A stretch of DNA of 64,000 nucleotides from Zoroaster sp. YZ-2022. Lineage: Eukaryota; Echinodermata; Asteroidea; Forcipulatida; Zoroasteridae. The translations under genes were made by a program, and so were the position numbers. This document shows, piece after piece, positions 5,016 to 62,540 of this stretch. The notes under the pieces are model-generated. The model searched no databases, had not been told where the DNA came from, and saw nothing but the letters and a program-made list of their open reading frames with translations. Positions within the stretch are counted from its first letter, which is position 1; every line of letters begins with the position of its first letter. The stretch lies in the NCBI GenBank assembly GCA_029582265.1, contig CM055816.1, positions 8,948,959-9,012,958 of the forward strand, written 5' to 3'.

Positions 5016-6148
5016 GATTTCTTGACAAAATTTTTTAGAGGTATGAGTGTAATGACATGTTCATTAACACATCAAAAACGTGAAACGTAAGGATTTGTTA
5101 TAGTAAAATGATATAAATATGTAATTTGGCACCTTATGAAGTAATAATTATGTAACTTCAGAATTAGTCTTACAAATATTCGTATTTCATACTTCTTAAG
5201 TCTCGTCGCGGTCGGACGTTGTTAGTATTGATAAATAACGCATGCCGATATTGATGATGTAATGATGACGCGTGCAAACGAAATATGTCAGTTTCAGAAG
5301 AGAGTCTATTCTGAACAATACAGACGAAGTTTACAATTCAGGATTAATTAAGTCTAATCTGAATGTTTATTAACAAAACAAACCAGACTTGAACTAAGAC
5401 TAGTCTTTAATAGAATACTTATGTTGCTAGCAGTAGTCCCTTGCACCTCCAACAGTGGTATTGCAGAGAGTAGGATATTGACGCTTGAGCCAATACTAGT
5501 CTTTGATATTCGATATTGTCTGTATGTACAATACAGACACCAACATAAATATGTACAGGTATTTATACATATTTATACCTGTACATATTCTATTTTTCTA
5601 TTGAAAATTGTGTAAAATTGTATCATAACAAATATCGAATCCTCTTCGTCAAACGAATAATGCCCCAGTAATTATCAAGTAATTATCCAAACATTTTATG
5701 TGCTAAACAAATTCACATAGGCATTAATTCATACAGGAAAAACAAATTATTTCCTCAAACCATTAAAACAATTCAGGTTGGGACTATCTATTATTGAATA
5801 ATCTTTTTTAACCAATTTGTGAGGAAACAAAAAACAGATAAAGCTGAGCCTTATCAAGTTTCTGTCAACCAATCAGGTGATACATGTAAATCACCATTCA
5901 GCAGTGACTTCACTTTGACCAATCAGTGCTTTACGCATGCAATCCTTTGGATCGCAAACATTCAATATAAACACTCATCGGTCGATGCTGTGTTACATTT
6001 CTACATTTTGTGCAGTATAGTGTTTCAATCAAACAGTTGGTCAACCGATGATACCGAAATACTTGATTGAATATAAACTGATAGTTCTACTTATTTAATT
6101 GGATTTACATTGAAACGTTTTCACCCATATACAAACAATACATTGAAG
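5016..6148. other. Upstream region of the fibrinogen-related gene
   Basis: AT-rich; no coding sequence recognised. A short inverted pair near 5555-5590 (ACAGGTATTTATACATA with TATTTATACCTGT) could form a hairpin. The gene's promoter should lie in the last 200-300 bases. Confidence 0.5.
5966..5972 (+). promoter_or_regulatory. Candidate TATA box of the fibrinogen-related gene
   Basis: TATAAAC lies about 180 bases upstream of the chosen ATG. That would put the transcription start near 5995-6000 and leave a 5' UTR of about 150 bases with a few out-of-frame ATGs. This rests on motif and position only; an upstream non-coding exon would change it. Confidence 0.3.
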
Positions 6149-7186
6149 ATGACGCAGCAAGTACTCTTGATGTGCGTACTCCATTTCAAAATGATGTTCG
6201 TGTTTATAGTACCACTGATATCACAAGCGGTAAGCTTGGGAAGTCAATGTGGTGGGCTTGCAAACGAATATCTCCCCGCAGATAACCGAGCACTCAAAAA
6301 CTTCACGTATGCCAAGAAAACTGTACCCTATTACGTCATGTGCGGACGAGACTGTAACATGGATAAGAACTGTAAGTCGTTTAACTTCTATGAATGCAAT
6401 AAAATGTGTGAGTTAAATAACTCCACAAGGACTGAGTATCCTGAATCATTCGTTGAAGATCAAGAAAGTGTGTACTTCGATGAAAATGAAGACACACCTC
6501 TCTTCTCATTGCCTGATATCTCCTTTGATCGCTACAAAAGTTGTAAAGGGCTAATGGAGGCAGGTTACCGCACAAGTGGTGTCTACAAGATCTACCCAGA
6601 CGGATTCAGCGATGGTCTCAAAGTCTATTGTGAAATGGACATTGATGGCGGCGGATGGATTGTGTTTCAGCGCAGAGAGGACGGCAATATTGGCTTTTAT
6701 CGTGACTGGAGTGAGTATAAGTCTGGCTTCGGTGATCTAAGCGGGGAGCATTGGTTAGGCAATGATAACTTGGTGAGTCTGACATCTGATAAATCACACG
6801 GGACATGGGACCTCCGCATAGATCTCACAGATTGGAGTGACGGTACGGCATTCGCGAAATACACGGATTTCCAAATCACTGGTGAGAAGTACACACTGAA
6901 TTATGGCGAATACGATGTAAGCAGCACTGCTGGTGACTCTCTTGGGCATCACAAGGGAATGTACTTCTCAACTGAGGATAATGACAATGATGCGTCAGGG
7001 CTGAATTGTGCACAATCCCGTGAAGGAGCCTGGTGGTTTAGTAAATGTCACGACTCTCACTTAAATGGTCCTTATTACCCAGATGGGCAGAATCAGGTGG
7101 CCAAAGGCATTGTGTGGTATCACTGGCATAACAACTGGAATACTCTCAAAGCATCCAGCATGAAAATGCGTGAAACAGACATGTAA
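6149..7186 (+). CDS. Secreted PAN/apple plus fibrinogen C-terminal domain protein (fibrinogen-related protein, 345 aa)
   Basis: The open frame reaches upstream to 6110, but the first ATG is at 6149 (context AAG-ATG-A), giving 345 residues ending in TAA. Residues 1 to about 29 are a hydrophobic signal peptide. Residues about 33-110 resemble a PAN/apple module: closely spaced cysteines in MCGRDCNMDKNC and ECNKMC, with an N-glycosylation sequon NNST. Residues about 128-345 are a fibrinogen-C (FReD) domain: SCKGL, GGGWIVFQRR, the acidic calcium-site stretch FSTEDNDND, and GAWWFSKCHDSHLNG. Cysteines flank the calcium loop as usual. Family knowledge: secreted invertebrate FReD proteins often bind acetylated sugars and serve in innate recognition. 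A lectin role is inferred; no ligand can be read from the sequence. The frame is intact in one exon. GTAAGT at the stop codon is a good splice-donor match, so an alternative 3' exon cannot be excluded. No related gene is nearby. Confidence 0.93.
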   Translation: MTQQVLLMCVLHFKMMFVFIVPLISQAVSLGSQCGGLANEYLPADNRALKNFTYAKKTVPYYVMCGRDCNMDKNCKSFNFYECNKMCELNNSTRTEYPESFVEDQESVYFDENEDTPLFSLPDISFDRYKSCKGLMEAGYRTSGVYKIYPDGFSDGLKVYCEMDIDGGGWIVFQRREDGNIGFYRDWSEYKSGFGDLSGEHWLGNDNLVSLTSDKSHGTWDLRIDLTDWSDGTAFAKYTDFQITGEKYTLNYGEYDVSSTAGDSLGHHKGMYFSTEDNDNDASGLNCAQSREGAWWFSKCHDSHLNGPYYPDGQNQVAKGIVWYHWHNNWNTLKASSMKMRETDM

Positions 7187-39460: not shown

Positions 39461-39480
39461 GGAAAACATAGACGATGCAT

Positions 39481-39984
39481 ATGTGACGCGGTATGTCAAA
39501 ACCAGGCGGAATTGGGCAGAGCTACGAATGGAGGAACAGCTGCAAAATTGCGATTTTGAGATTTCTAACTGAAATTTCATCGACAAATTAAAAAAAAAAA
39601 CTTTTAGAGAGGCATTATAATTTCACAAAATGATGCCTTGTTCGAGATTTTGCTTGGAAATGACGCCAAATTTAGAGTAACTTCGAGCTCACTTGCGAAC
39701 GTAAAATCGCACCGCCCCTATACAAATTTGGTATTGCCGGAAACGTCAGACTTTCGCTAATAAAGGAACTGAATAATTCATTAGGTATTTCCCCAGGAAA
39801 ATGACATCATCTCACTGTTTTGGACAGTCCGATTTCAAATCTTAATAACTTCGCTATGGAATATCCGATTTGAAAAAAGAAAGCGGCATTGTAAAGTGCA
39901 AGGTCTATATTTTACTAATATTTCAATAACTCAAAATTGACCTCTTGCCCAATTGTGCCTGGTTTTGACATACGGCGTCACATA
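39481..39984. mobile_element. Non-autonomous TIR element, about 504 bp
   Basis: The left end ATGTGACGCGGTATGTCAAA and the reversed right end ATGTGACGCCGTATGTCAAA continue to AATTGGGC, giving about 37 bp with 3 mismatches. No coding capacity. The target duplication is unclear because the end itself is ATAT-rich. Confidence 0.88.
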
Positions 39985-40260
39985 TCAGAAGTGACAAGAA
40001 ATATCTCGTCTGGTTTATTAACAAATTTCACTTGAGACTTCAATATTATAAATTATAGTGTATTATTTTATTTTTTTGCAAAACGTTTTTAATATAAGTT
40101 GAATGCGATTGTATTTATTGTAATTTATCGTAATTTATTGTAGCTATTACCACAAACACACTATAAACTCCGGATGCTTGTCGTACCGGTATTTCTGTGA
40201 CATAAGAATCCAATAAAACATTTTGAGCTAACGACTTTCAGTTAAAGCCTTTGTGTCTAA

Positions 40261-41692
40261 TCATCTGTCAAAATGCTGTGAGAACAACTTATTTATAACA
40301 TTACGCCAAATACTCTTCCAGTCGTGGGGGCCTGACACCAAAGTAATCTGAAATCTGGGAACCCCAGAGGCATGTGTGTGGCAGTTGGTCATCAAGACCG
40401 CAACTTTGTACGTTTTGCCCACAGATTGCAAATATAATTTCTGATTTTTCTTGAAGTCGACAAAGGCAAACAACGACACAACCTTTCCAAATGCCCACTC
40501 GACACATATACGAACACTGCTCATTTTCTTGTTGAACAGCTGCTGCTCCTCCGTCAGATTAGCTCCCTTGAATGGCCCTAGTAGCTGTGGTCGTAACGGG
40601 TAAGCTGTATTCCCGTATAAGCAGAATGACTCCCCTGATGAATGGTTGGGGAGCATCTGAAGATCTTCCAAGAGGTTGCTTTCGGTTAGCAAAGCTGAGT
40701 CGTGGCGTCTCCCTTCCATTGGCCCGAACATGTTGGCAATAAGGCCATTAGGGGTAACGACTGACTGATATTTAAGAGCGTGCGTTCTCTTATGGCCGTT
40801 GTAGCCCTGTTGAAAGAAAATGCAATCATTTAGGAACGTTTACCAAACTAACATGTGAAACATCATCGGACTTAAGACAGTCCAGTCACAACTAAAATAT
40901 CTTACATGAGGTTATTGGTTTTTGCCCTCACGATTATTAACCGAAATCAGAACAAATTATTCCTACTTCTCGTTGATGCCTGCCAGGTCGACAAATCGGG
41001 CGTACGGTACCATCAATGAATCCCCAGATCGAGGTAAGTGGACTCCCACGCTGATGGATGGCAGATGAGAATTCTTCCAATGAGTGGGACAACCAGGGTT
41101 GATGGAGATCGGATAACTTATCTCCAGCATTTTCCCATATAATATCTTGGATGGCATTGATCATTATGGACAACTCTTCAGGATGGCGGCCAAACAGCCT
41201 GCTAAGATCCGTCAATCTGTAGTGTAACGAAAATGCTACGTCATAGGCATCTTTAAATTATGTTCAAAAAGTTTCCCATTCCCAGATGAATTATTTCCCC
41301 TGTTCTTTGATCTTATGCACACAATAATAAAAGTAAGCTAAACCAAATGCATCAGGGAAAAAATCGTACAAAATAATGATAGTCTGTGAAAGGTTTAAAA
41401 TTGTAAACGAACCTGTTTGGATACGCCAGACGTCTAAGCAAGAAGAACATGGCATCCTGGCCAGACACTGTGGACTTGTTGTAGCAAGTGATTTCAGGAG
41501 GGATTCTCAGTAGAGTAGTTATCTTTCTAACCTGATCATGGCTAAATCTGAACAGGTTCAGGCATTCACTATCAGTGAAGCTACTCGTGACAAGCCTTGC
41601 GCAAAGAACTCTTGGTACTTTTACTCGTCATCAGCATCAGTTTCCTCACTCATCAAATACGCAAAAGCAATATCGTCGAAACCCGCTGCCAT
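40261..41692 (-). pseudogene. Harbinger (HARBI1-type, DDE_Tnp_4) transposase pseudogene, three exons
   Basis: Three exons join in frame on the minus strand. Exon 1 (41692-41413) starts MAAGFDD and ends FFLLRRLAYPN. Exon 2 (41216-40967) has LTDLSRLFGRHPEELS and the first catalytic Asp in GFIDGTVRPI. Exon 3 (40806-40261) has GYNGHKRTHALKYQSVVTPN, GPMEGRRHDSALL, YGNTAYPL, and the catalytic Glu in VRICVEWAFG. Splice sites are GT/AG: donors at 41412 and 40966, acceptors at 41217 and 40807. Known HARBI1-like proteins have GDPAYP where this has GNTAYP, so the second catalytic Asp is Asn (codon 40609-40611, GAT to AAT). Exon 1 also has a stop after DADDE and a frameshift. Excision activity is therefore not expected. 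The Myb-like partner gene of Harbinger elements was not found nearby. This is an old transposon copy, not the domesticated vertebrate gene. Confidence 0.9.
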
Positions 41693-41775: not shown

Positions 41776-41826
41776 GCGTACGGCAACGCGTACTGGAAGA
41801 AGCTTCCAGTACGCGTTGCCGTACGC
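41776..41826. repeat. 24-bp perfect inverted repeat with 3-base loop
   Basis: Arms 41776-41799 and 41803-41826 pair exactly (GCGTACGGCAACGCGTACTG... against its complement) around AAG. It is CpG-rich and contains ACGCGT. It lies at the left edge of the 41.8-46.9 kb transposon. Confidence 0.92.
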
Positions 41827-42526
41827 GTTCAGCAAAAACGCGTAACTTAACCTCACCTCACGCAACTTTACACGAATACGACAATAGCACGTATGCAACT
41901 GATAATTACTGTCTGCGTGTACGACCATATGAATTTCTCGTGCACAAAATTGTATTACTATATTTCCCGTATATAATGTGCAGGAGCACACAGCGCGCGC
42001 GCGTGTGCGACCCACACTTCGCACACTAGCACTGCAACAAACAAGGTCAATACCATTGTGCGGATGGGGAGGTTCTGGCAATTGGGTAAACTGGGGGGGG
42101 GGGGGTGTAATAAAAAGGACATTATAAATCCTAGACGTTTTTTAGCCAATAATAACGTTTTCATTCATTTATTAACAATAAATTCCACCAAACCATTCAC
42201 TTAATTCATGTTAATGGGAGTGTAACTAACATGTTAAAAATTGCACACAACAATAAAGTATAAATAACTTAATCTTTCTTGTTCTATTTTTTTCATGGAA
42301 TATTTGTTAAACAAATTAATTTTGTGAGGTAGGTTTCATAAGCACAACAAATGTCACCTTTGGAAGGAAGAATTCATTGTTTAACATTATTGAACAACAC
42401 TTAAATAGATTAAAACATGTGTCCTACATTACGTAAATTAATTGTCCTGCAGGAATTTTTTACAAGAAAAATGTAATATTTTTAAACAAATTCTTTAACT
42501 TTAAAAAGTTTAATAATACCATTTAG

Positions 42527-43168
42527 TTATATTTTATTTATATTGAAATTCACACAGCATGAACGTTTATTATGGCCTTTTTCATGACATTTGCTGCATG
42601 TTATTTCAAAACACTTGTCCCTTTTGCATGTAGGATACAAGTACTCTACCCGATTTGCTTTGTCCATTACCTGTTTCAATGCTTGTGGACCCTTGTGGTC
42701 TGAGCTATGAAAAAAACATTTGGTTAGGAAATCGTTAAGCTTTTCAAAGCCTTGCTGTGAGTATTGTTGTAGACCTCCATGCAATATCATGGCTTCTTCA
42801 ACATGTTTGGCCATTATGTGCATATAAACAGTAACATCTTTCGCCAAATATGTGTCTTTGTACAAAGACACCCAAGCTTGTGCTTTTAGTGTAAAACTTC
42901 CTGGATTTTCCTTATCTATGTCTTTCTTCATCATTGCCATAAGAACAGGAAATTCTTCCCAGAGCTTTACTACTTTATCAAGCTTTTTATGCCACGGAAT
43001 AAGACCTACCAAGTTGATGGCTCTCTGTATTTTTTTGTGCTCAGGGCCAATGAAATCACGATATGTGAGAAGACCTGAAGTTTTGTCTGTTGAGAATTTC
43101 CACTGAATACCTAGACCCTGGACAAAATTTTCAAAAGCCATTATATTAGCACACTTTGTCTTGTCCAC
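42527..43168 (-). pseudogene. RAG1/Transib-like recombinase, C-terminal part: zinc-binding His pair, catalytic Glu, CCGHC knuckle
   Basis: 213 codons on the minus strand, in another frame from the upstream piece; the two overlap at 43141-43168, so one frameshift separates them. Residues 117 and 122 form HIMAKH (H-x4-H). Glu142 in GFEKLND follows the second His by 20 residues and has Asn three residues on. In RAG1 the matching residues are H937, H942 and E962 (spacings 5 and 20), with Asn three after the Glu. Residues 191-204 (TCSKCHEKGHNKRSC) fit CX2CX3GHX4C, a tail motif reported for RAG1-like transposases; similar knuckles also occur in MULE and other transposases. The role expected from the family is completing the DDE active site for strand cleavage and transfer in the nucleus. 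This copy is inactive because of the frameshifts. Confidence 0.75.
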
Positions 43169-43986
43169 GTTTTTTGGTTTTTCTTTACGTTGTCTTCTGT
43201 ATGAATGTCTTTCACTAATTGTCTGATGAGCTGATCAGACACTCGTAAATACAAATGAAGAGGGTCCATAATCACTTTACATATTTCAATGGAAAACATC
43301 GGGGGCCGTAAACATGCAAAATGATCTTTGCGTTTTCCTGGCAGTTTGGATTCTCTTTCAATCTCCTGAATTGTACGAGCACCTTTTGAAAGATCAGTTA
43401 AAGACCAATCAATAGACATGTCCCAATATTTGCTAGCTGGGCACTTACACCAAGCACAACTATACTCACTAGAGCAGCTTCCCAATCCTAACATTTCGTT
43501 AATGAATTTCAAATCTGCACAAAATACATAGTCCAAATGTACAGTTTTTCCCTGGAAGAACAGCGACGTTACTTCCTCAATTTCTTGGGAAAGATTCATT
43601 TCCAAAAAGATGGGTTTCAAAGCATCAAATTTTTCTGGTTGATGTGTAAGTGCAAGTACATGTTCAGACGATTTATAGCTTCCATAGATCAAAACAAACC
43701 CAATATTTGTTACTGACTTTCTGGAGCCAAAACTTGTCCCATCACCTGTAATTTTTACAACAACCGTATCACCATCTGTCAAAGTCATTTGTGGAAACAT
43801 TGCTGCCATGTTTTGCATAGCACGTATCAATTTGTTTTCTAGGGGCTCCCAAACAAACTGTTGCTCGTCGTTTATCCTTACACCAAATTTTGCATTGGGT
43901 TCTTCTGCTCTATTTTGAAGACTATAGAGGGATGGCAAATTGGTATCAGAAGCACAATTTCTTGATATGCTTCGTTCCCGATACAA
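43141..43986 (-). pseudogene. RAG1/Transib-like recombinase, central part: two catalytic Asp and CxxC zinc pair
   Basis: 281 codons on the minus strand. Asp82 in VVVKITGDGTSFG (codon 43741-43743) is the candidate first catalytic residue. Asp158 in CADLKFINEMLGLG (codon 43513-43515) is the second, 76 residues later. Cys177 and Cys180 in YSCAWCKC follow Asp158 by 19 and 22 residues, exactly as C727 and C730 follow D708 in RAG1, with Gly-Leu and Tyr at equivalent positions between. Downstream, MDPLHLYLRVSD resembles the RAG1 segment with a conserved Asp-x-Leu-His. The D1-D2 distance is shorter than in RAG1 (76 against 108). I recall the same arrangement in unannotated proteins of sponges and cnidarians. 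Transib, RAG1 and CMC (Chapaev/CACTA) elements all share D-D-C2-H2-E, so superfamily placement stays open. The N-terminal residues 1-10 belong to a shifted frame. Confidence 0.78.
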
Positions 43987-44449
43987 TATCTATCTTTGAC
44001 AAAGAGCATACGATCGATGGAGGGAGTTTTCACACTGCATGAGCATTTGGGTTCATTTGCAGCAACTTTATCAATTGTGTTTCCATATAAGTCACTGACA
44101 GAAATATGTTTAGGGATAAAACCTGCCTCATGAAGGAGATCACATGTTAGGTTAACCTCACTTTGTAGCACTTTCTTTTGCTTTCTTTTCCATCTTGTAC
44201 TGTAAGAAACCTTTCTAACTACACGCCTTTGCTTTTCTGTTATGCGCCGTTTACTCAGTCGAGCAAGAACCAACTTTGCCCTTTTAACCTCTTTTTTGTA
44301 AGCACAGACCCTTTTTTTTCTCTCATGTAGTTGCTTTTTTGTCTGTATTAATTCATCTTCTACAACTTTTCGTCATTTCTTTTCACTCTCTAACAAATCT
44401 TGGGCCTTTCGTTTTGCACCTCCAAGAACCAATCGATATGTATCTTGTT
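43878..44449 (-). pseudogene. Basic coiled-coil and N-terminal region of the recombinase
   Basis: The frame reads from about 44449 (TKALFDKLKQDTYRLVLGGA) through one stop (TGA near 44372-44374) and a Lys/Glu-rich helical stretch. Then comes LSKRRITEKQRRVVRKVSYS, likely DNA-binding, then KVLQSEVNLTCDLLHEAGFI, and LFVKDRYCIGNEAYQEI, after which the frame shifts into the DDE part near 43985. The motif order and unbroken homology-like character suggest one original protein of more than 600 residues. The function of this region is inferred from charge and position only. Confidence 0.6.
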
Positions 44450-44815
44450 TTAATTTGTCAAAAAGAGCTTTTGTGGTTCTACCACCTTTTTTTTGGCTTT
44501 CTTAACATGTGGGACTAGTCTCTTCACTTTGCTGGTTAATTTTGATATTGCACCTTCAATATCAACAAATTCCAAGTTAACACCACTGTCCTTGCATAAT
44601 GTTTCCAAAACTGCATGTGAACACTCTCTTTGGTGATACTGAAAGTTGCTGTTTTTAACCAAGTTATACAGAACATAATTGTTCACCTCTATTACCCACT
44701 CACCCAAATCACTTGGATAGCAAATCACAATGTTTTTTGAAATACACAGCAATATTGCTATTACTGTAATACACAGATGCTTTGACATTATGCACACAAA
44801 ATTCTTTGTGCACAC
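44450..44815 (-). pseudogene. Linker ORF of the same transposon
   Basis: About 120 codons between the chromo-barrel ORF and the coiled-coil region, shifted in frame from both. It contains LGEWVIEVNNYVLYNLVKNS and a Lys-rich end, VKRLVPHVKKAKKK. The N-terminal 35 residues are hydrophobic, but that may come from a wrong frame or start. I do not recognise the fold. It is probably part of the same original protein, or a separate short ORF. Confidence 0.5.
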
Positions 44816-44819
44816 AGTT

Positions 44820-45497
44820 TTAAGGTTTGATCAGAATATGCATGTCACTGTTGCCTGTACGTTTAACATAACGAACCACACAATTATATCCGCGGTGCAC
44901 AAGTCTCTTCTTCAGATCTCTGGTGTATTCAACAAATGGCTGGCGTTCTGTAATCCACAGTTGTAGAGTTTCCTCTTCTACATATGCGAAGTCACCGGCT
45001 TCATTTCCCACTCGCCACCACCAATCCTCACCAAGAACGTTGGACCATGCTGACAATGGAGCACGGAAGATTTTCCTTACACCCTTGGTTTCATTAAGTT
45101 CACCTTTTATGTCTTTAACAAACGCATCAAAGTTTTCCCGCTGCACCGGTATCTGAAGTGTCACCTCCGAGTTTTGTATCCTTGAGAGATTTAAGTTCTC
45201 CTTCACTTGAATCTTGATCTGACTTATTAACAGCAAATAAGCATCACTGACTTCATGGTCAATTGGAGTGTTAACTATATCATACATGTGACGCCATTCA
45301 TCCCATTTACTAGACCATCCACTGTAGTGAACAAGAACTTGTTCCTCGTCCTCATGTAGTCTCTCTCCAATAATTTCTAATTGCCAAAGTTTAGATGTAG
45401 GCCATTTATCATCTTTCACAAAACACCCACTTTGAGGTATGTCCTCCCCTTTATCTAACTGACGATAATCAGGTTTTGGGTTTTTCCGTAATTCCAT
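44820..45497 (-). CDS. Chromo-barrel/Tudor-knot-like protein of the transposon (225 aa)
   Basis: The open frame is intact. Residues about 32-75 contain LWQLEIIGERLHEDEEQVLV then HYSGWSSKWDEWRHMYDIV, the hallmark VHYxGWxxxxDEW of MRG/MSL3-type chromo-barrel (Tudor-knot) domains that read methylated histones or bind RNA. The rest (for example DWWWRVGNEAGDFAYVEEET) has no fold I can name, though the pattern repeats in the recombinase family as I remember it. A good 3' splice site (poly-pyrimidine tract then CTTCAG) ends a few bases before the ATG, so an upstream exon may exist. It is transcribed in the same direction as the DDE pieces, just before them. It may be the N-terminal part of the recombinase or a separate partner. 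A targeting role through chromatin is inferred. It could alternatively be a host exon captured by the element. Confidence 0.65.
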   Translation of the reverse strand: MELRKNPKPDYRQLDKGEDIPQSGCFVKDDKWPTSKLWQLEIIGERLHEDEEQVLVHYSGWSSKWDEWRHMYDIVNTPIDHEVSDAYLLLISQIKIQVKENLNLSRIQNSEVTLQIPVQRENFDAFVKDIKGELNETKGVRKIFRAPLSAWSNVLGEDWWWRVGNEAGDFAYVEEETLQLWITERQPFVEYTRDLKKRLVHRGYNCVVRYVKRTGNSDMHILIKP

Positions 45498-46740
45498 TCC
45501 ATCTGAAGAAAAAAAAAAAACTAGAACAGATTACTTATCACAATCACATCAATATGCAAAATTAAATAAATTATTTGTTCATTATGCTTGTTCCACATTA
45601 AGCCTTACTCCTAAGCTCAGCAGTCCATATATAATATGGTTGAAAATATGGCTTAAAACAACCTCTCCTGACGAGCTGAATTCAGTTTTACAGGTTAATG
45701 GATATATCTTCCATGAGAACACATGAGGTTTTAAGTTTGTTATGCTTGGCAGCGAATGTCACTGCCACTGCTACAGTGCTAGCCGAATGGCAATTTTTTG
45801 TTTAATAATAATAGATCAGAAACTCAAACGAATAATGACCTTGAGTTGACTCTTATCTTAAGTCAGGTTAGTTTGCAGAAAAGTTAAGATATTCTGGAAC
45901 TAGACACAAAATGTGAATTTTATTTCACACGTTATTACATAACAGAAAAAGAACGAATATTTCTGTGTGGACTAACGGTTGTGTGCTCTTGACTTTCGCA
46001 TGTCAATGACATGTACGTAATACCCAAAGCGAAATGGAATGGTCCAACAAAACTTTTAACGCTCGCTGTGTGCTGGCGTGTGGATTGCAGACCCAATTGT
46101 GTACTGTATTTCCTTCACTCTAACTAAAGAATAAGTAACATAAATAAAAATATATATCAAAATATAATCTATAATCTTTCAGCTTTCATACCATATAACT
46201 AAATCTACAATTGGTATTCTTAATGAGGAGAAACTTACCAACATACGGAGACGTAGTACGGTGTCAATGTAGTACGGTGTCAATCTGGATCCTTCAATCA
46301 CGAAACGTGTGTGATCAATAGGCGGTGGTTGTACGTTTCAAAGAGAAATTTTGATTGGCCAAAAATAGTTATCGTCCAAATGCCGGTGCTTAACATTGAC
46401 CAATTGCAATGACTTTTGGAACAGTAAAAGGCAAGGGTTTGCAATGTCAAATACCGCGCGAACGGAACGTTTCGCCTCAGCGGTTGCCGAGTTACTGTAG
46501 AACACGTAGTATGATTGGTAAGATATTTCCCGACACATTTTATGCTCAGCGTACGGGAGTACACAGGGAGGAAACGGTTTTCTTTTAAAATTTGACTTAA
46601 TGCCGAGGACAAATATAATTTTAAAAACATACAATTTCTATGATAGAATAATATACAAATCAAACTGTCTGATGGAGAACGATCGGAAGTGTTAGCATAA
46701 GTGGTTGATCTGTTATGATACAATCTTTTCAAAAAAGTGA
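45498..46740. other. Non-coding 5' region of the transposon
   Basis: No supported coding sequence. The open frames at 46298-46936 have no motif. A small tandem duplication (GTAGTACGGTGTCAAT) lies near 46253-46283. Confidence 0.45.
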
Positions 46741-46935
46741 CCTGTCCCTGCACTTGGCTTCTTGTAGTTCGCGCTCGCGCGCTGTGTGTGCGGCCGCGCG
46801 GTTCTTTAAGTTCCCTTGGGGAATTCATATGAATAGCACGTACGTGTCTGGTAATTACTGCATGGTGTATGCAACCGACATTATTGCTGTCTGTCTGTAC
46901 AATAACGACACCTACGCAACTGGTAATTAATAACA

Positions 46936-47665: not shown

Positions 47666-48249
47666 ATGTTGGTACTCCACTATATCTCTATAGATACATG
47701 TTGTTATTTCGATATAGATTCATTCAACCAGCTCACTCATGATTCTTTTTCTCTTTTTCATGTCAACAGTCGTAGCCTCAACACAAAATTTAATTCAATT
47801 AGTGACTTTCTGTCTCTCCTTAACCATGAGTTTTCTGTCATAGGCTTCAGTGAAACATGGTTTAGTGATCAAATATCCCCATTAATTCAACTCGAGCACT
47901 ATACACATGTAGAAAGTCATAGACAAAATAGAAAAGGGGGAGGGATATGCATCTTTATTTCAAATACACATAATTTCATAAAAAAGAGTGACATCTCCTT
48001 CTTCAATTCAGTGATTGAAAGTCTTTTTATTGAGATCACCGACTTGAATGGAAAGAGTGGCATTATTGGTGTAGTTTATAGACCTCCACCTGTAGAGTTC
48101 CATTTCTTCCTTCAATGAGTATATAAATACTATCCTGAATAAGATCTCATGTGAAAACAAAGATTATGAGCGATTTTATTATGAGCGATTTTAATATTGA
48201 TTTACTGAAGAGTGGGTCTGCTGATCTCAAAAACTGTAAAAATTTTTTT
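47666..48249 (+). pseudogene. LINE (CR1/Jockey-like) APE endonuclease domain, cut by the scaffold gap
   Basis: The segment shows the order of an apurinic-type endonuclease of non-LTR elements: FHVNSRSL, IGFSETWFS, RKGGGICIFI, GVVYRPP, then SDFNIDLLKSG. The first frame stops at 48118; the continuation (FNEYINTILNKISCENK, then DFNIDLLK) is in other frames. A duplicated 15-mer (ATTATGAGCGATTTT) at about 48165-48194 explains part of the break. The domain would nick target DNA to prime reverse transcription. The reverse transcriptase part, if present, is lost in the gap. It is the same general LINE type as the copies at 23.5 and 29.4 kb, but overlap cannot be tested because those retain only the 3' part. 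Confidence 0.85.
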
Positions 48250-48749
48250 NNNNNNNNNNNNNNNNNNNNNNNNNNNNNNNNNNNNNNNNNNNNNNNNNNN
48301 NNNNNNNNNNNNNNNNNNNNNNNNNNNNNNNNNNNNNNNNNNNNNNNNNNNNNNNNNNNNNNNNNNNNNNNNNNNNNNNNNNNNNNNNNNNNNNNNNNNN
48401 NNNNNNNNNNNNNNNNNNNNNNNNNNNNNNNNNNNNNNNNNNNNNNNNNNNNNNNNNNNNNNNNNNNNNNNNNNNNNNNNNNNNNNNNNNNNNNNNNNNN
48501 NNNNNNNNNNNNNNNNNNNNNNNNNNNNNNNNNNNNNNNNNNNNNNNNNNNNNNNNNNNNNNNNNNNNNNNNNNNNNNNNNNNNNNNNNNNNNNNNNNNN
48601 NNNNNNNNNNNNNNNNNNNNNNNNNNNNNNNNNNNNNNNNNNNNNNNNNNNNNNNNNNNNNNNNNNNNNNNNNNNNNNNNNNNNNNNNNNNNNNNNNNNN
48701 NNNNNNNNNNNNNNNNNNNNNNNNNNNNNNNNNNNNNNNNNNNNNNNNN
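48250..48749. other. Assembly gap (500 N)
   Basis: Exactly 500 N, a conventional placeholder, so the true length is unknown. Open frames predicted across it are meaningless. Confidence 0.99.
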
Positions 48750-49868
48750 TTGAATCTCGACCTGATGAGGGCGCCAAGCTCGATTTTTAAGATAGAATTA
48801 AGTTTTTCTTTTGTTCTAAGAGGACCTGCCTGGTCTCCGGTGTGATTTCCGGCGCAGACTGAAGGTCGTCAATAGTCCGATTTATTTTAAAAGAGCTTCG
48901 CGTTTCTCGGAAGCAATTTTTAGAAAATGTTTGAGTAATGTTTTGATGTGGGACTTGCCAAAGTCCCACCAAGAATTTAAATTGGGGAAATCGGACTGTT
49001 TTGGACGCCATTCTCCCCAGAAACAAGTTATAATTTGTTTGTATGCTTCATCCTGAAGAAGTGAATTATTAAATGCCAGTAGGCGCTACCCGAAATTAGC
49101 CGAGGGTAGTTGAATTTTTAAAGAAATAGCGGAGTGATCAGAAAGAGAACAGGGTGTTATTTTGCACGAATGAATAGAGGATAACATATCAGGATGAAGA
49201 TACAAACGATCTAACCTGGCTTTGAAACACCACAATCCCTGGAAGGGTTATTCCGCAGCCAGGTAAATTGTTGTTTCTGGGGATTCAGTCTACGCCAAAC
49301 ATCACACAGAGAGAGTGCACCAACAGTTTCCTTGAGAGCTGCTGCGACTCTGGATCTACGCTCGGTGGGCGCATGCAGACGGTCCAATGCAGGATTTTCC
49401 GTGCAGTTAAAGTCACCTCCGACCACAACGACACCGTCACTGTTACAAGAAGATAAATGTTTAGAAAAGGAGTTAAAGACTTCAAAAGCAAGAGCGTCGC
49501 TCTGGGGTACTAACAAATTATAAATATGGAAAATAGTTTGGTTGTGCTTAATTTTAGAGTAAAGGACATGTCCTTTACAAACATTAAAATTAGAAAGTAT
49601 TTCAATTTTTTTTATTGTTGATGAGTGTGGTTACCCCAGAGCCACGGGAAATGGAAGGGGAGGAGAAAGGAGTGTGGGGCCATAGGCTCCAGCAGAAGCT
49701 CATTTCCGTGAGGTTATAAGTCTCCTGCAGGAGCACTATGTCGGAAAAGGGAAAGAAATTTTCAAAATAAGCATTTATGGCGGCGTTTTTGGTAGGCGTT
49801 GAACAGCCGCCGGTGTTCAGGGAAATCAGTGACAGTGTCATTGCGACCAAGCCAATCAAGACCGCCAT
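48750..49868 (-). pseudogene. Tx1-like LINE ORF2: endonuclease domain and start of linker
   Basis: Minus strand. The pieces LISLNTGGC and DIVLLQETYNL (about 49868-49710) are followed in another frame by IFHIYNLLVPQSDALAFEVF and VVGGDFNCTENPALDRLHAP, LCDVWRRLNPQKQQFTW, then SDHSAISLKIQLP and SWWDFGKSHIKTLLKHF. This is the L1/Tx1 clade endonuclease order, with the catalytic GDFNC and SDH. Several frameshifts and stops are seen. The element continues toward the gap, so the reverse transcriptase is not visible here. It lies just downstream of an ORF1 on the same strand. Confidence 0.88.
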
Positions 49869-61740: not shown

Positions 61741-62540
61741 GTGTTTGTATTGACAAACACTAGGTGTTCACCGTAAAGGTCAAATTAGTCAACTTTGTTT
61801 AAATATGTTTTGACAATTAACGATCTGTAAATTTTGGTGAAAAGATTGTGAATTTACCTCTGTGGATGATTTTTGTTAATTAAACTTTGACTTTCGGTTT
61901 GGACAGGAAGTAAAGGTCAAATTAGTCACCTTTTGTAAATATTTTTGACAATTAAAAATCTGTACAATGGTGCAAAACTGTGGAATTTACCTGTTGTGGT
62001 TGTTGAGATATTATTTTTTAAATATTAAATTTTGACTTCCGGTTTGGACAGGAAGTAAGGTCAAAATTAGTCACCTTTTTGTAATTTTTTTTACAATTAA
62101 CAATCTATACAATGGTGGAAAGATTGTGAATTACCCCTTGTGGTTGTTGAGATATGATTTTTAAAATACTTAAAATTTTGACTTCCGGTTTGGACAGGGA
62201 AGTAAGGTCAAATTGGGGTCACCTTTTTGTAAATAATTGTTCACAATTAACAATCTATACAATGGTGGAAAGATTTGTGAATTTACCCCTTTGTGGTTGT
62301 TGAGATATGATTTTTAAAATATTAAACTTTGACTTCGGTTTGGACAGGAAGTAAGGTCAAATTGGGGTCATCTTTGTGTAAATATTTTTCGACAATTAAC
62401 GGTCTGTACAATGGTACAAAACTGTGAATTTACCTCTTGTGGTTGTTGAGATATGATTTTTAAATAAAGTTTGACTTCCGGTTTGGACAGAGAAGTAAGG
62501 TCAAATTTTTTTGTAAATATATTTTGGACAATTAACGATT
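61735..62540 (-). repeat. Tandem array, six repeats of 136-149 bp
   Basis: Unit starts (GGTCAAA) lie at about 61779, 61915, 62059, 62208, 62354 and 62499. Each unit has CAATTAACRATCTGTA, a GTGAATTTACCTCTTGTGGT-type stretch, GTTGAGATATGATTTTTAAA and GACTTCCGGTTTGGACAGGA. The array is preceded by GTGTTTGT-ATTG-ACAAACAC, then AGGTGTTCACC. The reverse complement matches the repeats at 36840-38345. Confidence 0.9.

Follow-up and report, generated by a model that had tools for sequence, protein, structure and literature searches.

A dead two-gene transposon in a sea star genome encodes a transposase with a RAG1-like fold and lacks a regular target duplication

RAG1, the enzyme that cuts antibody genes, is of a type that cleaves DNA by nicking and hairpin formation and inserts with a 5-bp stagger. 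In published descriptions, the ends of Transib and RAGL elements begin with CAC and their target-site duplication (TSD) is 5 bp long (PMC7204232), Chapaev termini are invariably CAC/GTG with TSDs of 3–4 bp (PMC4079192), Chapaevs carry the Chapa zinc finger (PMC4411706), and the DUF1280 domain, for which counts in Hydra have been given (PMC7642931), has been attributed to Chapaev and shares a clade with RAG1 (PMC3985635). The wider CMCT clan is described by C(2)C and H(3-4)H motifs between the second D and the E of the active site, by mostly 5'-CA..TG-3' ends and by TSDs of 2–5 bp (PMC12730594). Here we describe a transposon in a stretch of 64,000 nucleotides of the sea star Zoroaster sp. YZ-2022 (CM055816.1, positions 8,948,959 to 9,012,958, hereafter the window) to which the published definitions of RAG1 and Transib apply only in part.

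The element, at window positions 41926–46831, is a dead copy of an abundant and recently mobile element with two genes, ORF1 and ORF2. With a probability of roughly 0.8, it derives from a cut-and-paste transposon whose DDE transposase has the RAG1 fold and which forms a lineage of its own within the CMCT clan (EnSpm, Mirage, Chapaev, Transib and RAG1), set apart by the published descriptions. The initial annotation had proposed a RAG1-like recombinase at 42527–43986; that span is real, but it covers only the last two frames of the larger element, and the ends, ORF1 and the missing target duplication had been overlooked. The parts of the window copy are as follows.

41926..46831, minus strand (genes): complete but broken transposon copy, 4,906 bp; similarity to other copies in the same genome starts and stops there
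46821..46831, minus strand: terminal inverted repeat upstream of the genes (5' side), from the comparison of copies
44820..45530, minus strand: ORF1, about 230 aa, with an N-terminal chromodomain-like or chromo-barrel-like part (Tudor-knot, MSL3 type) and a C-terminal domain without a match
44450..44830, minus strand: ORF2 piece 1, the helical N-terminal portion of the transposase, resembling by eye the N-termini of the related proteins P0005 and P0006
43878..44372, minus strand: ORF2 piece 2, comprising a basic region and the beginning of the RAG1-like core
43141..43989, minus strand: ORF2 piece 3, the RNase H-like half, which carries D82, D158, C177, C180 and the DxLH motif, from the sequence and the family alignment
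42527..43234, minus strand: ORF2 piece 4, with H139, H144, E164, N167 and the C-terminal CCHC knuckle, from the sequence and the family alignment
41926..41936, plus strand: terminal inverted repeat downstream of the genes (3' side), agreeing with the opposite end at 12 of the first 15 bases

The ends of the element were fixed by comparing near-identical copies from the same genome. All 11 copies bounded by this comparison, which belong to four families of 4.9–6.3 kb, start with CATAT and finish with ATATG, and their terminal inverted repeats are short, with 12–15 matches within the first 15 bases; the window copy has the termini 5'-CATATGAATT...AATTCATATG-3'. One other copy (L020) has AATAT instead of CATAT at its left end and about 1.3 kb of extra sequence. 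Copies of three more families (L024, L025 and L027) were located through ends of the CATAT/ATATG type and are thus no test of the end rule. The genome (1.0 Gb, 616 contigs) contains at least 139 matches to the transposase core, 15 of which sit in open frames of at least 700 aa with no stop within the match. The ORF2 sequences of five copy pairs from three families differ by only 2–8 substitutions and 0–6 indel columns per ~2.3 kb, and movement was therefore recent. The window copy is itself broken, because its ORF2 is spread in four pieces over several frames; pieces 2, 3 and 4 form a single open frame of 606 aa in copy L010, and pieces 1 and 2 share one open frame in copy L013. Just outside the element, at 41776–41826, lies a perfect inverted repeat whose 24-bp arms enclose a loop of 3 bases.

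The residues expected of a RAG1-type active site and zinc site were located in the last two pieces of ORF2.

43741..43743, minus strand: first catalytic Asp, D82, in a GDGT motif
43513..43515, minus strand: second catalytic Asp, D158, in a DLKF motif
43447..43458, minus strand: C-x2-C half of the zinc site, C177 and C180
42803..42820, minus strand: H-x4-H half of the zinc site, H139 and H144
42743..42745, minus strand: catalytic Glu, E164
42557..42598, minus strand: C-x2-C-x3-G-H-x4-C zinc knuckle at the ORF2 C-terminus, from the sequence

In RAG1 the corresponding residues are D600, D708, C727, C730, H937, H942 and E962, the numbers also used in the initial annotation, which had pointed to Asp/Cys residues in one frame and His/Glu/Asn residues in the next at the RAG1 spacings. 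These residues and spacings are present in the two minus-strand frames, with the earlier numbering of the His/Glu frame offset by a constant: C177 and C180 follow D158 at +19 and +22 in piece 3, and in piece 4 H144 lies 5 residues after H139, E164 follows H144 at +20 and N167 follows E164 at +3. The view that such agreement is unlikely to arise by chance was borne out when the two peptides were shuffled 20,000 times, the first pattern arising in 257 shuffles, the second in 17 and the two together in none. A search with the two window frames found 57 related proteins, from which three alignments were made: A1 with 30 of the proteins, A2 with 56 (without P0002) and A3 without P0002, P0011 and P0057. 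Among the A2 rows with a letter at the site, the two Asp are conserved in 54/55 and 55/55, the two Cys in 55/55 and 54/55, the two His in 54/54 and 55/55, and the Glu and the Asn in 55/55 each. The spacing set (19,3,5,20) occurs in 50 of the 53 A2 rows complete at all seven sites and (19,3,5,21) in the other 3. The strict pattern of the C-terminal knuckle is found in 46/52 rows, a match that is weak by itself because CCHC knuckles are common.

Single-sequence searches of Pfam and the PDB with the window frames gave nothing useful, and a family profile was needed. When the profile built from 30 members was compared with solved structures, the best 14 of the 39 rows were RAG1 and RAG1L chains, with a best E-value of 6.5e-6. 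The AlphaFold2 model of the transposase matches RAG1 over model residues 238–702, with an identity of about 14–16% in the aligned structures. RAG1 stands well ahead of the other structures in Z, aligned length and Foldseek E-value, and HzTransib scores lower; integrases, Hermes and ISCth4, which appear below the P element in the Foldseek and VIA rows, were taken as general RNase H similarity, and no EnSpm-type structure is among the rows listed. An origin of the resemblance in chance, or in a DDE enzyme of the hAT or P-element type, is extremely improbable given this lead of RAG1 in structure and sequence profile and the shuffling result. The earlier suggestion that the protein may represent a Transib/RAG1-like or CMC family that branches deeply and has no name is supported by three of the checks proposed with it: the RAG1-topped profile search, the RAG1-like model and the collection of further genomic copies, some of them in long open frames.

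No Pfam family scored above its own cut-off in any protein scanned on its own, and neither Transposase_21 nor DUF1258, matches to which would mark EnSpm, Mirage or ESTA, is among the best 25 of the 55 Pfam families matched by members. A second, profile-based protein search returned 33 proteins, and among the matches listed all were of the same family, without Pfam domains and with no bridge to a named family. Among the relatives listed in the two protein searches, the named ones are from a sea cucumber and an abalone. Scans of bacterial and archaeal contigs and of IMG/VR yielded no confirmed relative.

Insertion sites were compared at 14 copies. The count includes L024, L025 and L027, found by the end-motif search, and excludes L010, L011, L012 and L023 (end missing or not found), L020 (AATAT end), L026 (flanks the same as those of L025) and L028 (no end pair). 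No exact direct repeat of at least 3 bp was present at any of the 14 sites, and repeats of 1 bp and 2 bp were found at 6 sites (3.5 expected by chance) and 2 sites (0.88 expected), respectively. Unoccupied versions of three sites were available for comparison. Copy L022 lies in a satellite, and its joined flanks aligned with no gap at the junction to 8/8 unoccupied units of its own array, so the insertion neither duplicated nor removed any base at this site. Searching the whole genome with these flanks returned 87 rows, of which 41 cross the junction (a count of rows only). The same satellite, with a unit of ~145 bp, also forms a tandem array in the window at 61879–62507. Copy L024 lies in another satellite, in which the empty unit is one base longer than the joined flanks in 50/62 alignments, which means either that a single base was lost or that element and target have a terminal C in common. 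For the window copy, the joined flanks align without a junction gap to a neighbouring repeat unit (74.6% identity, E 6.7e-5):

46867..46929, plus strand: diverged neighbouring repeat unit, an unoccupied version of the window insertion site

Direct repeats flanking the window copy (family D1) were considered as a long target duplication and rejected, being part of a diverged 72-bp local repeat. The three comparisons agree that there is no duplication, and a length of exactly 0 bp is clean at one site only. The six more distant units of the L022 satellite in the window are divided: three are in agreement, and the other three show gaps in the junction or next to it, one of which, two bases long, would on its own fit a 2-bp duplication. 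Among eukaryotic DDE transposons, Spy/PHIS have been reported to insert without a TSD; they resemble our element in this respect but belong to a different transposase group, being Harbinger-related and without the RAG1-type zinc insertion.

The missing duplication suggests that the two target strands are joined opposite, or nearly opposite, to each other. The alternative is that the transposase does insert with a stagger, but that host end joining normally places the blunt excised element into breaks, so that no duplication is seen. A change of 0 bp at one site and of −1 bp at another would be the outcome of blunt joining that now and then loses a base, but all 11 copies delimited by comparison have intact ends, whereas joining at breaks would be expected to trim them more, and we regard this explanation as unlikely. 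On the preferred reading, the ORF2 protein is a RAG1-fold DDE transposase with one zinc site (CxxC and HxxxxH), the DxLH motif and the CCHC knuckle, which would recognise the short 5'-CATATN ends, excise the element and join it to new DNA. By homology of the fold and active site to RAG1 and Transib, it is expected to act as a dimer that binds the CATAT ends, makes nicks and hairpins and transfers the released 3' ends to the target, and the target strands would be joined at opposing or nearly opposing phosphates, that is, with zero stagger.

The termini and insertion sites also bear on the placement of the element among the known families. A diverged Chapaev (DUF1280) family with altered termini and duplication could account for the C(2)C, LH and H(4)H motifs and for the DUF1280 profile match, weak as it is, in 7/56 members (best E 1.3e-4), the published clade of DUF1280 with RAG1 pointing the same way (PMC3985635). 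Against the CAC/GTG ends and 3–4 bp TSD described for Chapaev (PMC4079192), however, the element has CAT/ATG ends and its sites lack repeats of that length, and no sign of the Chapa zinc finger (PMC4411706) was seen in the ORF2 frames, in which no Cys or His column reaches 60% conservation before residue 240 of P0005 (32 rows; the N-termini are predicted frames, and an unread exon is possible). Such a descent is quite unlikely. A Transib, or a RAGL transposon without RAG2L, is very unlikely: the fold is the same and the C-terminal knuckle resembles the CCGHC tail that invertebrate RAG1L carries, as well as the tail called type I in Subgroup I Transibs, but the ends are CATAT and not CAC, the 5-bp TSD (PMC7204232) is missing, and HzTransib is absent from the 39 sequence-profile matches to solved structures at E≤10. 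With the RAG1 core and RAGL (ProtoRAG), the element shares the DDE spacing, both zinc halves, DxLH and a second gene with a domain of chromatin-reader type; in RAGL, however, RAG1L and RAG2L are convergent, whereas here the second gene is chromodomain-like and on the same strand. Transib differs further in having no such additional ORF. Of the marks of the CMCT clan, the element shows the motif pair C(2)C and H(3-4)H and the CA..TG termini, but it differs in the TSD, given as 2–5 bp for the clan (PMC12730594). The Dada superfamily was also considered and set aside, as it makes 6–7 bp TSDs in small RNA genes (PMC3706591). Because the termini and TSD do not fit those published for Transib, RAGL and Chapaev, the element is best placed as a separate lineage within the CMCT clan. 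No description of such an element was found in the titles and abstract openings surveyed, and a Repbase entry is possible.

ORF1 is present in the four families read, always on the same strand as ORF2, and looks chromodomain-like. Its C-terminal domain (residues ~110–225, window 44820–45170) is predicted with a pLDDT near 90, and structural matches were found only in the chromodomain part. None of the ORF1s scanned matched RAG2, and the longest frame opposite ORF2 was 188 aa in 13 copies of the four families, an intron-split RAG2L being possible. ORF1 may bind methylated histone tails or chromatin, tether the complex and steer insertion, and would then occupy the place held by RAG2L in RAGL transposons. 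At least 2 of the 14 insertion sites lie in satellites, a number too small to bear on steering by ORF1.

ORF2 begins with Met and a strongly hydrophobic, signal-peptide-like stretch (window 44721–44790), a start that is common to the four element families read, those of L022, L018 and L017 included, and to the relatives P0005, P0006, P0008 and P0010. This stretch is less alike than the remainder of ORF2, matching at 13/27 positions between the L022 family and P0008 (478/717 in the remainder) and at 8/27 between the L022 family and P0010 (407/713 in the remainder). It may be a translated leader or the pyrimidine-rich end of an intron. Splicing that would fuse ORF1 to ORF2 was considered and rejected, as the reading phases did not fit in either of the two families checked by eye. 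AlphaFold2 predicts helices in the N-terminal region of ORF2.

We see about even odds that the family stands next to Transib, TransibSU/RAG, Chapaev and Chapaev3 as a branch of its own, the fifth, one that pairs a zero-stagger RAG1-fold transposase with a chromodomain partner, in which case the pairing of a RAG1-type enzyme with a histone reader would have arisen more than once. For the question of how the stagger and the partnership with RAG2 evolved, the element could serve as an outgroup in RAG1 evolution and as a tractable case of how the RAG1 fold sets target spacing. The family further draws attention to a group of animal proteins that lack annotation.

Other features were observed elsewhere in the window. 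A remnant of a second DNA transposon gene lies at 40261–40839 (Pfam DDE_Tnp_4, E 3.7e-23) and is presumably Harbinger-like, and a unit of ~507 bp at 39479–39985, with 40-nt inverted repeats that are 93% complementary, is likely a miniature inverted-repeat transposable element. Six overlapping open frames of 193–216 aa on both strands at 48139–48868 are as expected of low-complexity or repeat DNA. An open frame at 6077–7186 with PAN and fibrinogen C-terminal domains, which point to an animal as host, is probably a host gene.
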